From Metabacillus sp. B2-18 (GTDB lineage Bacteria > Bacillota > Bacilli > Bacillales > Bacillaceae), in assembly GCF_021117275.1 (NCBI RefSeq), contig NZ_CP088245.1, positions 3,199,501 through 3,263,500 on the forward strand: 64,000 nt of DNA, in the 5' to 3' direction. Both the position numbers and the translations under genes were made by a program. Below the pieces are notes generated by a model. The model had not been told where the DNA came from, made no database searches, and was given only the letters and a program-made list of their open reading frames with translations. Shown piece by piece: positions 15,237 to 56,775 of the stretch. How positions within the stretch are numbered: the stretch's first letter is position 1; each line of letters starts with the position of its first letter.

Positions 15237-16232
15237 TTATGCTTTCTTTCTTCTTAAGATATCTGCATAAACCGCTAATATAATAACAAATCCTACAACA
15301 ACAGTTTGCCATTCTTGTGGAACTGATAAAATTCGTAGGCCATTCGTTAGAACACTCATGATTAGCGCTCCAATTACTGTACCTACAATCGTTCCTTTAC
15401 CACCACTAAGTGAGGTTCCACCAATTACAACTGCTGCAATTGCTTCTAATTCATACCCCATCCCTAACGCAGGCTGTGCAGAATTTAATCGAGAGGCCAT
15501 TAGTACGCCGGCAATCCCCGTAAATACACCAGCCATTGTATAAATAATGATTTTCCATCGATCAACATTAACACCTGATAATCTAGTAGCTTCTTCATTA
15601 CTGCCTAGAGCAAAGTTATATCTTCCAATGATTGTTTTACTCAAGATTAAAGATCCAATGATGGCTACAGCAAAAAAGATAATAACACCATTCGGAATTC
15701 CGAATCCAGGAATTATATTTCCTAGAGAAATATCAGAGAAACCTGGAGAATCTGTGAAGTAGATCGGCTTTGTTCCAGAGATTACTAGAGCTAGACCTTT
15801 AGCAATCATCATCATAGCTAATGTTGCAATAAAAGGTGGTATTTTCATTTTGGAAATAGCTAGACCACAGAGAAATCCACAGAATGCACCTGTAAGAATT
15901 CCCCCAATTACCCCAATTAGAGTTGGTACACCCCACATAGTTATAAAGACCCCTGTCATTACAGAACACAATGTCATAACCGTACCAACTGACAAATCAA
16001 TTCCTCCGGTAATAATAACGAACGTTGCACCTAACGCAAGGATACCAATAACTGCTGTAGAAAGAAGTATTCCCACAATATTTGAAAATTGTAAAAAGTT
16101 AGGTGATGCTAAAGAAAAAATAATGACCAAAAGTATTAAACTAGCAAATGCTAATAATTGTTGTAACATTCCAGATTTAATAGGTAGTTTTTTACTCTTT
16201 AAAGGTACATTTGTCGTTGTTTCCGCCTTCAT
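15237..16232 (-). CDS. sugar ABC transporter permease (RbsC-like)
   Basis: A 331-residue integral membrane protein with about eight to ten hydrophobic helices. It has the ribose-family permease motifs ATFVIITGGIDLSVGTVMTL and EATRLSGVNVDRWK (the cytoplasmic coupling loop with the ATPase) and EAIAAVVIGGTSLSGGKGT near the C-terminus. ATG with GGGGGGAG. It lies 21 nt after the ATPase gene and 71 nt before the binding-protein gene, giving order ATPase-permease-binding protein. One permease gene implies a homodimer. Confidence 0.92.
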   Translation of the reverse strand: MKAETTTNVPLKSKKLPIKSGMLQQLLAFASLILLVIIFSLASPNFLQFSNIVGILLSTAVIGILALGATFVIITGGIDLSVGTVMTLCSVMTGVFITMWGVPTLIGVIGGILTGAFCGFLCGLAISKMKIPPFIATLAMMMIAKGLALVISGTKPIYFTDSPGFSDISLGNIIPGFGIPNGVIIFFAVAIIGSLILSKTIIGRYNFALGSNEEATRLSGVNVDRWKIIIYTMAGVFTGIAGVLMASRLNSAQPALGMGYELEAIAAVVIGGTSLSGGKGTIVGTVIGALIMSVLTNGLRILSVPQEWQTVVVGFVIILAVYADILRRKKA

Positions 16233-17756: not shown

Positions 17757-17922
17757 ATTTTCACCATCCTTTATTTTGTTATATGTAGTACCTATCTGTG
17801 TTCTTTTGATAAAACCAACAAAAAAAATTTTATTCTGAGGTTAGTCAGTAACCTTCTATTATTATAAAATATTAAACAAATAATTATGTTGGTTTTTTCT
17901 TTGTTTTTCTTTATTTAACTTC

Positions 17923-17942
17923 GTTAATGTTGATTATAAACA
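17923..17942 (-). promoter_or_regulatory. 20-bp operator-like repeat, copy B
   Basis: Identical to 14000-14019 over 20 bases while the flanks differ. It overlaps the -10 of the importer promoter in exactly the same register as copy A. Conservation beyond the TATAAT box (the ATTAAC arm) points to regulator binding rather than promoter resemblance alone. Confidence 0.68.
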
Positions 17943-52376: not shown

Positions 52377-52404
52377 ATTTTTTCCAGCAGGAGGAAATTT
52401 ATAC
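52377..52404 (-). promoter_or_regulatory. candidate sigma-F promoter of dacF
   Basis: Minus-strand GTATA (52400-52404), 14-bp spacer, GGAAAAAAT (52377-52385), fitting the sigma-F pattern GYATA ... GGNNANAAT. It lies about 30 bp before dacF, which is a known sigma-F gene. Spacer is one shorter than typical. Confidence 0.6.
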
Positions 52405-52422
52405 TAGGATTGGGAGGTTTTT

Positions 52423-53397
52423 TTATTTAGGGTATAGAGTGATATGATACTTTCTGTTACATGTAGTACCAGATGTTTTGAAGGTTAATGATGATAGCAG
52501 TTTGTAGGAGGTCGTACTTGATGAGAGATTGGCGAAGTTTCTAAATTGCTTGTTTGTTATATAAGTACATATAAGAAGATAATAATCGTTTATTGTTTGA
52601 GTATGAGCAGTTTTAGAAGTTTTTTCACAGCTATTACATTTCCATTTCCCGCCTGCTCTTTTCATAGATAAAGTTTCGCACCCTTCACAAAATACCCCTG
52701 ATAAAATATCATTTACGTTGATATTAAATTCGTTAAGGATATTTAAAACTGGTGGTGTATGTAGGTTTAGGATGAAATCTGATAGCTGACTCAGCTGTTT
52801 CTTATTTTGCTTTTTTCTATGATTGTGTATCTCATTTAACCTTTCAATTTCAAATAATATATTTGAACTTTTAATAATAGACGGTGTGTTCCTTCTTTCT
52901 TCACCTATTACTTTTATAATCGTATTCGAATTAGTTATCACAACACATGTCTCAATTGCAAAATCATGTAGCTTTTTCGAATTCAACCAATTCTTTAGCT
53001 GATATTCTTGATGTTTTACCTGACTGATAGGATCCTGAAACCCTTCTACTTTCCCATTCACCTCTCTAATAAGCTGATTATGCTTTTGGTCAAAAGTAAG
53101 TGTACCTGAAATATTTTTAGATTCAATAATAAGCATGATACGGGGAGTTATAATTAGTACATCTATTTGGAAATAGTAAGTTTCACCTTTTAATCTAATA
53201 TCATGGAAAATATAGTAATCTTCCCCTAAAAAGCTTAAGTAATAATCTAGTGATTTTTCTCCTTTGTATCCAGCCATCCTTTTAGAATACTCATTTTCAA
53301 TTAAAACTCTTTTTGGATGGTCACTCGGGATTCTCCTTAATAATGCATTTAATGCTAGAATTCTTTCCGTTATTTGTTTTTCTTTAACCATTACCAC
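52423..53397 (-). CDS. NERD domain protein with zinc ribbon
   Basis: A 324-residue protein. The N-terminal region (LLRRIPSDHPKRVLIENEYS, then AGYKGEKSLDYYLSFLGEDY) and FQIDVLIITPRIMLIIESKN make the NERD (nuclease-related) domain at about 30-150; the Asp...Glu-x-Lys arrangement resembles endonuclease-like active sites. A basic helical linker follows, then a zinc ribbon of two CxxC pairs (FCEGCETL ... KWKCNSCEKT) near residue 245, and a C-terminal domain. Function is unknown; DNA processing is a guess. Start is uncertain: TTG 53403, GTG 53397 or ATG 53391, with AAGGGAG best spaced for the GTG. B. subtilis has no gene here. Confidence 0.78.
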   Translation of the reverse strand: MVMVKEKQITERILALNALLRRIPSDHPKRVLIENEYSKRMAGYKGEKSLDYYLSFLGEDYYIFHDIRLKGETYYFQIDVLIITPRIMLIIESKNISGTLTFDQKHNQLIREVNGKVEGFQDPISQVKHQEYQLKNWLNSKKLHDFAIETCVVITNSNTIIKVIGEERRNTPSIIKSSNILFEIERLNEIHNHRKKQNKKQLSQLSDFILNLHTPPVLNILNEFNINVNDILSGVFCEGCETLSMKRAGGKWKCNSCEKTSKTAHTQTINDYYLLICTYITNKQFRNFANLSSSTTSYKLLSSLTFKTSGTTCNRKYHITLYPK

Positions 53398-53617
53398 TTT
53401 CAAATCACTCCCTTATCTTTTATAAAGTAATTCAATGACTATAGTTATAATACCTCTAATATTGTTAAAATCGCTTTTTAGCAAGAATATGGTATACATT
53501 AATTTTTATAAATTGTACTATTAACTTTCAGTAATGATATTTTCAATGTAGGAAATGTTTTTTTAAATGAAGGTAGATGGTTTTTTATATTTGTGTGTTG
53601 TGGTTTTGTTTGTCTAG
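53398..53617. other. A/T-rich gap between NERD gene and repeat array
   Basis: About 220 bp with no gene. It should carry the NERD-gene promoter; no convincing pair of boxes was picked out. The first recognisable, degenerate repeat unit begins at 53618. Confidence 0.45.
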
Positions 53618-54527
53618 TCAGTCTATTTTTCATGGTTCGGTCATTTTCCTATTTGGTCAGGTCGTTCTACCGGATCATCATGTCGTTTTTCCCTTGATTC
53701 AGGTCATTTTCACATTCGGTCGCGTCGTTTCCTTTTGGTCTGGTCATTTTCACATTCTATCGCGTCGTTTCCTCTCGGTCACGTCATTTTCCTGATTGAT
53801 CACGTCGTTTTGCTGTTTTATCACGTCGTCTTTCGCTTGAGTCAGGTCATTTTCTCCTTCTATCGCGTCGTTTCCTCTTAGTCAGGTCATTTTCCTAATT
53901 GGTCACGTCGCTTTGCCGTTTTATCCCGTCGTCTTTCGCTTGAGTCAGGTCATTTTCTCCTTCTATCGCGTCGTTTCCTCTTGGTCAGGTCATTTTCCTA
54001 ATTAATCACGTCATTCTGCCGTTTTATCACGTCGTCTTTCACTTGAGTCAGGTCATTTTCACATTCTATCGCGTCGTTTCCTCTTAGTCAGGTCATTTTC
54101 CTAATTGGTCACGTCATTCTGCCGTTTTATCACGTCGTTTTTCCCTTGAATCAGGTCATTTTCTCCTTCTGTCGTGGCGTTTCCTCTTGGTCAGTTCATT
54201 TTCCTGATTGATCACGTCATTCTGCCTATTGATCCCGTCGTCTTTCCCTTGAGTGGGTCATTTTCATCTTCTATCGCGTCGTTTCCTCTTAGTCAGGTCA
54301 TTTTCCTGATTGGTCACGTCATTCTGCCGTTTTATCACGTCGTTTTTCCCTTGAATCAGGTCATTTTCACATTCTATCGCGTCGTTTCCTCTTAATCAGG
54401 TCATTTTCCTAATTGGTCACGTCATTCTGCCGTTTTATCACGGCGTCTTTCCCTTGAGTCAGGTCATTCTCTCCTTCTATCGCGTCGTTTCCTCTTGGTC
54501 AGGTCATTTTCTCCTCCTATCGCGTCT
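53618..54527. repeat. phased tandem array: ~44 degenerate 21-bp units in a 103-bp higher-order repeat
   Basis: On the plus strand nearly every unit begins TC(A/G)(C/G)GTC(A/G)TT and is 21 bp long. Five unit types recur in fixed order: TCAGGTCATTTTCCTAATT.., TCACGTCATTCTGCCGTTT.., TCACGTCGTCTTTCCCTTG.., TCAGGTCATTTTCTCCTTC.. (21 bp each) and TCGCGTCGTTTCCTCTT.. (19 bp), giving 103 bp. Five-unit blocks start at 53779, 53882, 53985, 54088, 54191, 54293, 54396 and 54499, so spacing is 103 except for one block of 102. The 5' end (53618-53778) is older looking, with a simpler two-unit 40-bp alternation. 103 is not a multiple of three and stops occur in every frame, so it is not protein coding. No spacer diversity, so not CRISPR. 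It lies between the NERD gene and the pdp terminator. Confidence 0.95.
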
Positions 54528-54591
54528 CCCACCAACTAAGTATTACCTTTCTTTATAATCACGCCTAACTTACTACCGACCCAAATACAAA

Positions 54592-54618
54592 AATACCACA
54601 GCAATAAGCTGTGGTATT
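54592..54618 (-). terminator. rho-independent terminator of drm-punA-pdp
   Basis: AATACCACAGC pairs with GCTGTGGTATT over 11 bp with a 5-nt loop and a minus-strand TTTTTG tail, just after pdp. The repeat array begins about 65 bp beyond it. Confidence 0.92.
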
Positions 54619-54630
54619 TATTATCAACAT

Positions 54631-55932
54631 CTATTCAACTGTAGCGTAAATCAATTCTGGTGCTTTTACCTCTTCGTTACTAACAGTGATGCTTTCATAA
54701 AGAGTCTTTCTTACATCTTCTACATTTTCTTCATTACTATGAATCGTAACTAGTGACTCTCCTTGTTTCACACTGTCCCCTATTTTTTTATTTAGTACTA
54801 GACCAACAGCAAGATCGATTTCTGATTCTTTTGTTGCTCTTCCTGCACCTAATAGCATTGCAGCTGTACCAACTGAGTCAGCAATAATTTCAGAAACATA
54901 ACCATCAGATTTTGCTTCTAGTTCAAATTGATATGCTGCTTGCGGCAACTTTTCAGGTTGATCTACAACTGATCCATCTCCACCTTGTGCCTCTAAAAAT
55001 GTTTTTAATGTTGTTAAAGCTTCACCGTTTTCCATGACTTCAACCAACATCTTTCGGGCTTCCTCAAGGGAGTTGGCTTTTTCAGCCAAATAAACCATAT
55101 AACTTCCTAATGTTAAGCAAAGTTCTTCTAGATCTTTCGGTCCTTTACCACTTAAAGTATCAATCGCCTCTTTGACTTCTAGTGCATTTCCAATTGCATA
55201 TCCTAGTGGTTGACTCATATCTGAAATAACTGCCATTGTTTTACGGCCAACAAGGTTCCCGATATCAACCATTGCATTGGCTAAGTCTTTAGATTCCTCT
55301 AAATCTTTCATAAAAGCACCGGCACCTGTTTTTACATCTAATACAATTGCATCTGCACCTGCTGCAATTTTTTTACTCATGATGGAGCTTGCGATAAGTG
55401 GAATGCTATTCACTGTTGCCGTCACATCTCGTAATGCATATAAGCTTTTGTCTGCAGGGGTTAGGTTGCCACTTTGTCCAATTACTGCTATTTTGTTTTG
55501 ATTTACCAATTCAATAAATTGTTTGTTCTCAATTTCCACATGAAAGCCAGGAACAGATTCAAGCTTGTCAATTGTTCCACCAGTATGACCTAGTCCTCTT
55601 CCGGACATTTTTGCCACTGGAACGCCAACCGCTGCCACTAATGGACCCAATACAAGTGTTGTTGTATCACCAACACCACCGGTACTGTGTTTATCAACTT
55701 TTATTCCTTGAATTTCACTTAAATCAATGGTGTCACCCGATTGGACCATTGCCATTGTAAGTTCAGCACGTTCATTATCTGTCATTCCTTGAAAATAAAT
55801 AGCCATTGTAAAAGCACTCATTTGATAATCAGGGATGTCACCTGTTGTATAGCCTTTGATAATGTGTTGAATTTCTTCTTTTGTTAATTCTTTTCCATCA
55901 CGTTTTTTTTCAATCAAGTCAACCATTCTCAT
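54631..55932 (-). CDS. pdp: pyrimidine-nucleoside phosphorylase
   Basis: A 433-residue dimeric enzyme splitting uridine, thymidine and deoxyuridine with phosphate. [20 protein letters not shown] and the phosphate-binding [20 protein letters not shown] (residues about 80-100) are diagnostic, with [18 protein letters not shown] next. It is last in the nucleoside salvage operon drm-punA-pdp, 21 nt after punA. ATG with AGGTGAGAG. In B. subtilis pdp is at another locus, so operon make-up differs. Confidence 0.95.
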
Positions 55933-55953
55933 AAGTCTCTCACCTTTTTTTCA

Positions 55954-56775
55954 TTAGAAATTTATTTTTTCTACAATGCTTTTTACAAGGTTTAAAAAGT
56001 TTGCTCTTACTTTTTCAGTTGTTTCTATTACTTCATCATGTGATAATGGCTGATCTAAAATACCAGCTGCCATATTTGAAATACAAGAGATCCCTAATAC
56101 TTTTAATCCAGTATGTCTGGCAACGATTACTTCTGGAACTGTAGACATTCCGACTGCGTCTCCACCAAGTATACGAAGGGCACGAACTTCTGCAGGAGTT
56201 TCATACGATGGACCAGTGTTTCCAACGTATACTCCTTCTTGAAGCTTAATATGTAATTCACTAGCAATTCCCCTTGCTAACTCTCTAAGTTGTTTATCAT
56301 AGCTTTCAGACATGTCAGGGAAACGAGGTCCCATATCAGAATCATTTGGGCCAATTAACGGGTTTGTCCCCATATTATTAATATGATCGCTAATCAACAT
56401 AAGATCTCCGGCTTGGAAGTTTTCATTCACTCCGCCAGCTGCATTTGTCACAATTAATGTCTGAACTCCTAATTCCTTCATGACTCTTACAGGAGCTGTT
56501 ACTTTATCCAGACTGTATCCTTCATAGAAATGAAAACGTCCTTGCATAGCAACAACTTTTTTCCCTTTTAAACTTCCAAAAACAAGTTGACCAGCATGTC
56601 CTTCAACCGTTGAAACAGGAAAATTAGGGATTTCATTGTATGGTATTTTTACAGGATTCTCTATTTCGTCCGCTAATACACCTAAACCTGATCCCAAGAT
56701 TAGTCCTATTGTCGGTTGCTCACTATATTTTGATGTTAAGTAATTTGCTGCTTCTTTAATTAATTTACTATTCAT
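55954..56775 (-). CDS. punA: purine nucleoside phosphorylase
   Basis: A 273-residue trimeric-type purine nucleoside phosphorylase. LILGSGLGVLADEIENPVKI carries the phosphate Ser, MQGRFHFYEGYS the substrate loop, VTNAAGGVNENFQAGDLMLI and GGDAVGMSTVPEVIVARHTG the base-binding Glu/Asn region. It releases ribose 1-phosphate, which Drm converts to ribose 5-phosphate. ATG with AGGAGGG, 11 nt after drm. Confidence 0.95.
   Translation of the reverse strand: MNSKLIKEAANYLTSKYSEQPTIGLILGSGLGVLADEIENPVKIPYNEIPNFPVSTVEGHAGQLVFGSLKGKKVVAMQGRFHFYEGYSLDKVTAPVRVMKELGVQTLIVTNAAGGVNENFQAGDLMLISDHINNMGTNPLIGPNDSDMGPRFPDMSESYDKQLRELARGIASELHIKLQEGVYVGNTGPSYETPAEVRALRILGGDAVGMSTVPEVIVARHTGLKVLGISCISNMAAGILDQPLSHDEVIETTEKVRANFLNLVKSIVEKINF

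Follow-up and report, generated by a model that had tools for sequence, protein, structure and literature searches.

The window (64,000 nucleotides from Metabacillus sp. B2-18; genome G000) carries a phased tandem array between a hairpin and the leftward-read gene of a NERD-domain protein, with the edge of the array approximately 220 bp upstream of the NERD gene start (Table 1). The hairpin lies behind an ORF that we take to be pdp (pyrimidine-nucleoside phosphorylase; named by resemblance), which was matched in all 21 genomes of the genus. The preliminary description of this DNA had considered a transcript that reads through from pdp. Because the terminator-like hairpin separates pdp from the array, such read-through appears unlikely. 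The informative neighbor is the NERD gene on the opposite side.

Table 1. Features of the pdp-NERD site (positions in the window)
Feature	Position	Strand	Basis
NERD-domain protein of 326 aa with a zinc ribbon and a predicted winged helix; probably reads the array	52423..53403	-	Pfam, alignment, AlphaFold
GGGAGTG, probable ribosome-binding site before the NERD gene	53406..53412	-	Sequence inspection
Candidate NERD gene promoter, sigma-H-like	53428..53457	-	AGAGGTATT, ~12 bp, then TTGAATTA
Phased array, 43 units of AAYGACSYGA	53625..54508	-	Tandem-repeat search and unit scan
Hairpin AATACCACAGC-AATAA-GCTGTGGTATT separating pdp from the array, probable terminator	54592..54618	.	Sequence
pdp, neighbor behind which the array begins, outside the system	54631..55932	-	ORF

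A scan of the minus strand for AAYGACSYGA (two mismatches or fewer) yielded 43 units, whose 42 spacings comprise 32 of 21 bp, 9 of 19 bp, and 1 of 20 bp; the unit finder is restricted to steps of 18 to 23 or 38 to 44 bp, and its step tables are conditioned accordingly. These values bear out the earlier claim of a 21-bp helical phasing with one 19-bp unit per block. Degenerate units extend the array to approximately 53618 and 54527, and a looser scan that includes these ends gives 46 units. The 19-bp step falls at each fifth unit, producing a block of 103 bp, and Tandem Repeats Finder recovered the same higher-order period (103 bp, 7.7 copies, 53723 to 54511; score, 1205) as well as a period of 21 bp (36 copies). 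A 40-bp alternation, which had been assigned to one end of the array, is indeed present as a period of 40 bp, but it occurs at both ends (53699 to 53810 and 54405 to 54526). At lag 21, the spacer behind pdp has a self-identity of 0.486 (z = 15.8 relative to shuffled sequences). Since the unit finder and the array chaining used below fix the allowed steps, the period is documented with less bias by this lag statistic and the Tandem Repeats Finder output. Within the unit, conservation is strongest at G4, C6, A10, and A20, followed by A2, G9, and A5. The steps in the 103-bp block average 20.6 bp, corresponding to two turns of 10.3 bp each, and the 19-bp step may be a correction that holds one DNA face across long arrays.

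A coding repeat was rejected, as had been claimed, since the 19-bp units disrupt the frame and no ORF of at least 60 aa spans the array (the overlapping ones are two plus-strand ORFs of 72 and 73 aa). The exclusion of CRISPR likewise stood, given that the linkers come in a fixed order that repeats every 103 bp and unique spacers are absent. A known RNA family was ruled out on the basis of an Rfam search, which returned nothing at E values of ≤1 within 52400 to 56000.

The same array was found elsewhere in the genus. A DNA search of 60 genomes (including that of the window) detected the window array in two others (G006 and G015), at the same pdp-NERD site and with the same 103-bp block; thus, 2 of the 20 other species of the genus carry this array at that site. 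Because the array, its period, and its place recur in two other species, it is neither a product of chance nor an assembly slip in a single genome. Across the 21 genomes of the genus, lag 21 was the best lag (range, 15 to 29) in 9 of the 20 testable spacers at the pdp site (one tied). Some of the other congeners have arrays there that differ in sequence and proceed at a similar step, with super-periods of 82 bp (3 × 21 + 19) in G001 and 61 bp (2 × 21 + 19) in G011. Two-unit matches to the exact window core occurred in 4 of 80 family genomes, of which 3 have the array and 1 (G084) has a single match. A three-unit pattern scan of genome contigs returned 44 stretches, and the one inspected (L114) is a coding repeat.

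The preliminary description had proposed looking for the core and its phasing at other loci, and both recur: the three species with the window array also have GAC-core arrays at further chromosomal places. Triple-unit GACKTGA arrays elsewhere in the chromosome were found in only 3 of the 21 genomes, namely, those with the window-type gene (in G006, as a damaged copy), and in 0 of the 18 others. The GAC-core arrays at pdp, at yaaC, and at a third place have a common 21-21-21-21-19 order. Between different places, identity is 0.83 to 0.89 for the cores and 0.25 to 0.40 for the linkers. Of the steps in these arrays, 200 of 206 are 19 or 21 bp, a count conditioned by a chaining procedure that accepts 17 to 23 bp and favors 19 and 21 bp, and copy number ranges from 17 to 46 units in six arrays. 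The window-type NERD gene of G006 (L014) has frame changes and is missing the winged helix; the arrays in this genome keep the 21-21-21-21-19 order despite the broken gene. The gene may have been disrupted recently; alternatively, the arrays may not depend on the NERD protein. Remnants of NERD genes were also observed at the pdp site in G005 (L051), G008 (L050), G019 (L048), and G020 (L061). The array is short in G008 and G019 and no longer visible in G005 and G020, as if gene and array were decaying together.

The window protein matches the Pfam NERD domain (PF08378) at 74.8 bits (cutoff, 22.1), which is the sole Pfam domain above the cutoff; no Rep initiator was detected by Pfam. Its AlphaFold model (mean pLDDT, 94.9) has a C-terminal winged helix, of which helices 283 to 290 and 295 to 303 are the second and third. 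A PDB sequence search gave nothing below an E value of 0.05, and the fold resembles those of nucleases. Across 58 aligned sequences, E48, D80, K95, and the four cysteines C238, C241, C255, and C258 are invariant. The protein has the fold and residues of the PD-(D/E)XK type, with E93xK95 conserved, and PADLOC matches its NERD part to MkoA and weakly to PglW. Conservation of the E-D-ExK residues that belong to the nuclease fold makes DNA cleavage by this protein possible; the nuclease-like part could cleave the array, act in defense, or have a purely structural role. The query aligns over 72% of its length with a homolog from Metabacillus litoralis, at 91% identity. Within the genus, NERD matches were obtained in each of the 21 genomes (in G016, a fragment only). 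In the order, 163 of 199 genomes have a match to the window protein at E ≤ 0.001, a count that includes weak matches to NERD alone, and individual genomes have up to 12 matches; in a phylum sample, 38 of 299 genomes match. Outside the order, the near-full-length rows among the matches listed all come from one genome (G439, another family of the class). Its distant NERD gene (L375; 27% identity) has marked upstream tandem repeats, with subunits of approximately 20 to 22 bp inside a longer block and without a clean 21-bp lag.

A blind scan of noncoding parts of G000 and G008 (approximately 400 kb of each genome) revealed more 21-bp arrays with other words. One NERD gene of G008 is flanked on both sides by arrays of one core, which prompted a family-wide test. 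The first set comprised 103 genes for proteins with the ribbon and winged helix (97 testable upstream), and the held-out set consisted of 40 genes (34 testable upstream), giving 143 genes and 131 testable spacers in the pooled set; L216 (without an ORF match), first-set spacers shorter than 110 bp (6 upstream and 32 downstream), and 6 held-out upstream spacers were dropped. The best lag was determined over the range of 12 to 40, and values of 20, 21, 39, or 40 were counted. Upstream spacers gave one of these lags in 109 of 131 cases (86/97 in the first set and 23/34 in the held-out set), compared with 1/12 for the other NERD class, 89/564 for G000 spacers, and 18/105 for other spacers at the same loci. 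With the stricter requirement of z ≥ 2.5 (here, a strong signal), the upstream count was 93/131 (76/97 and 17/34, respectively) and the control counts were 0/12, 30/564, and 4/105 (pooled-set Fisher P values, 1e-6, 3e-57, and 5e-29, respectively; relatedness among genes is ignored here). The remaining 38 of the 131 testable genes show no strong upstream signal, and the held-out rate is below that of the first set. Strong downstream signals were obtained for 22/71 genes of the first set and 12/27 of the held-out set. None of 15 sampled loci of the ~303-aa NERD class had a strong signal on either side. Genome-wide, lag 21 is not enriched in G000, where it was the best of 16 lags in 102 of 1,597 noncoding windows. 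The window array is one instance of a gene-array pairing that extends across the order.

The cores vary among the genes of a genome. G012, G001, G003, and G011, for example, each have four genes with four different cores, and orthologs at one site often have a common core. A strong downstream array was obtained for 34 genes, and for 22 of them the upstream array was usable as well. In 13 of these 22, the downstream core falls within the 5% of loci closest to the gene's own upstream core (all loci ranked). Twelve of the 13 have the two arrays in the same orientation, and one (L335) has them reversed; in the other 9 of the 22, the cores are unmatched under the 5% rule.

Several arrays were seen apart from these loci or differ in detail. 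Nineteen-base-pair steps among 21-bp steps also occur in the unrelated arrays of L240, L242, L249, L305, and L306. At L116, an array is present and no NERD gene was seen within the stretch examined. An array in G008 (L144, positions 15638 to 16069) has a period of 124 bp (5 × 21 + 19) and the core GTGGTTCAA; no NERD gene was seen within approximately 1.8 kb, and similar cores accompany NERD genes of other species (L225 and L273). In the genome of the window, a short 21/42-bp array with the core AATCGAAGATAAA lies behind a 5S rRNA-like stretch (L156, positions 17835 to 17933). No adjoining NERD gene was seen there, and the core resembles those of NERD-linked arrays of relatives.

We compared core similarity with protein similarity for pairs of less than 60% identity, using 78 windows of 16 aa and partial correlation given overall identity. 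Proteins of partial length or without solid arrays were dropped, leaving 67 of 84 full-length proteins in a first run and 80 proteins (from 143 genes) in a later one. In both runs, residues 285 to 300, which span the second helix into the third, tracked core similarity best (partial r = 0.184 and 0.177, respectively), a weak correlation from which the shuffles remove shared ancestry incompletely. Shuffled labels matched the maximum in 2/200 and 1/200 trials, and they matched the value of this segment in 0/200 trials in both runs. The segment also ranked first of the 78 when each pair included one or more held-out members. Among single columns, R288 ranked at the top, followed by L223, T314, and K197 (outside the recognition helix), and residues 295, 296, and 299 were within the first nine. 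On this basis, we have moderate confidence that the stretch entering the predicted recognition helix is tied to the choice of core. Four residue-base rules were tested post hoc, the best of which paired Y/F with GCAA (11/12 versus 6/77), and a fifth (R with [TG]CA) was recognized by eye only. At the held-out loci, these two rules were unconfirmed (1/2 versus 1/29, P = 0.13, and 4/7 versus 7/24, P = 0.18, respectively).

The spacers in front of the genes also contain candidate regulatory sites. Sigma-H promoters have the consensus RNAGGAWWW-N11/12-RNNGAATWW. The motif GCAGGA was found within 200 nt before the start of 49 of 137 family genes (3.2 expected) and of 0 of 15 genes of the other class, at a median of 60 nt upstream of the start and with GAAT mostly at +23/+24 (26 cases), a geometry like that of sigma-H promoters. 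The strict sigma-H pattern was present in 9 of 100 genes, and the candidate in the window is imperfect, with a mismatch in its -35 part relative to the consensus. The Spo0A box motif TGTCGAA (PMC3485338) occurred in 26 of 137 spacers (3.7 expected). Among the 25 cases measured, 17 have the box 5 to 29 bp ahead of the first unit; an exact Spo0A box is absent from 53300 to 54700 in the window. Since the GCAGGA/GAAT sites and the Spo0A boxes exceed expectation, part of the family is likely expressed during the sporulation phase. The distance between array and promoter varies widely, which is untypical of a classical operator.

In the plasmids F and P1, iterons flank the rep gene on both sides. 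TubR and ParR are plasmid centromere-binding proteins with repeated sites by their own operons. The putative DNA-binding protein described here resembles the latter in that its gene adjoins phased direct repeats; it differs in that the system is chromosomal, the sites are approximately 20.6 bp apart, and a partner motor gene was not noticed at the window locus. As in iteron-Rep systems (F, P1, RK2, R6K, and Vibrio ori2), tandem direct repeats of approximately 17 to 22 bp adjoin the gene of a putative reader. Iterons are described as direct repeats of 17 to 22 bp with a winged-helix reader, for which separation of two sites by half a turn abolishes cooperative binding (PMC4980987), and as lying near the initiator gene, with handcuffing that involves titration sites and with autorepression (PMC6090056). 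The present system is not placed among the iteron-Rep systems because its protein is no Rep by Pfam. A NERD nuclease-like protein takes the place of the Rep initiator, the arrays reach 43 units or more, and several pairs with different cores occur per genome. Unlike plasmid iterons, the arrays lie in chromosome-size contigs (5.05 to 5.23 Mb). The neighbor is a member of the NERD class (PF08378) by Pfam, and the array-bearing subfamily has a zinc ribbon and a predicted winged helix in addition. CRISPR loci also have tandem repeats that adjoin a nuclease-like gene, whereas the linkers here recur every 103 bp and are not unique. We found no literature report of arrays beside NERD genes (judged by title and the opening of the abstract, with subscription papers mostly outside the scope). 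In Bacillus methanolicus, a NERD gene to which no start site is assigned lies 456 bp behind upp, and the passage that reports it does not mention repeats (PMC12802215).

The pairing of gene and array, the gene-specific cores, the core common to both sides in 13 of 22 loci, and the fixed spacing with free linkers can be read directly from the sequences compared. On balance, we judge the array to be, with fair probability, a private iteron-like docking platform of the neighboring NERD protein, in line with the protein-binding platform suggested in the preliminary description; binding itself is predicted from sequence. NERD copies would bind the repeated cores via the predicted winged helix and, because the cores are approximately two helical turns apart, would form a row side by side on one DNA face. 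Binding would presumably be cooperative, the array may act as an operator through which the sigma-H-type promoter is autoregulated, and bound protein could bridge the gene's array with dispersed arrays of the same core.

The arrays might instead be the target of the NERD nuclease. Gene and repeats would then form a cassette, selfish or defensive in nature, by which DNA at the repeats is cut, copied, or marked, and arrays would grow through the repair of cuts. The conserved E48, D80, and E93xK95 in a nuclease-like fold, the PADLOC matches to MkoA and weakly to PglW, the arrays on both sides of some genes, and the patchy presence with remnants at the pdp site are consistent with such a cassette. 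If unprotected, tens of units next to an expressed nuclease gene would, however, amount to self-harm, and the spacing is nearly free of indels, unlike repair scars; we regard this explanation as rather improbable. A platform for another shared host factor (e.g., Spo0A or a nucleoid protein), with the NERD gene as its customer, seems more doubtful still. One factor would suggest one core, yet cores differ within a genome, and a helix region of the NERD protein tracks core similarity, even though the position of Spo0A boxes ahead of the first unit (17 of 25), the common sigma-H-like promoters, and the persistence of the G006 arrays beside a broken gene all point toward such a factor.

It is very improbable that the arrays are a neutral satellite that arose without meaning from slippage and unequal crossing-over in spacers. 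Copy number does vary (17 to 46 units in the six GAC-core arrays), and the higher-order blocks and the concerted change within a locus are what such a process would produce; unequal crossing-over, the mode of growth proposed in the preliminary description, is thus plausible for copy number. It does not account for the retention of cores and spacing across loci whose linkers have close to chance identity, for the concentration of strong signals beside the family (93/131 versus 4/105 and 30/564 elsewhere), or for the core common to both sides in 13 of 22 loci.

If the docking platform is taken as the working interpretation, an apparent satellite becomes the readable half of a two-part system, and the pairing supplies many NERD genes with a candidate DNA target that is readable from sequence. 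It would also yield a large natural collection of winged-helix proteins whose tandem target words differ. The NERD domain is common, yet its bacterial role is unstudied to the knowledge of one group of authors (PMC9040797); another article terms NERD a characterized nuclease, citing Grynberg and Godzik (PMC12567373). A wider picture, which we offer tentatively and consider unlikely to hold in full, is that the order contains orthogonal nuclease-address pairs. Several NERD-ribbon-winged-helix proteins per genome would each read their own array only, extra arrays of the same address elsewhere in the chromosome would be tied together by the protein at the start of sporulation, and changes in a few helix residues would alter recognition, providing a natural code for new DNA addresses.

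A second family of arrays is present in spacers of the window's genome, with a period of 52 bp (approximately five helical turns). Its units mostly have the inverted ends GAAGACCA...TGGTCTTC, and it was observed at L118 (5440), L135 (3294), L162 (422 to 886), L163 (5458 to 5790), L165 (8775 to 9208), and L172 (1548 to 1919).
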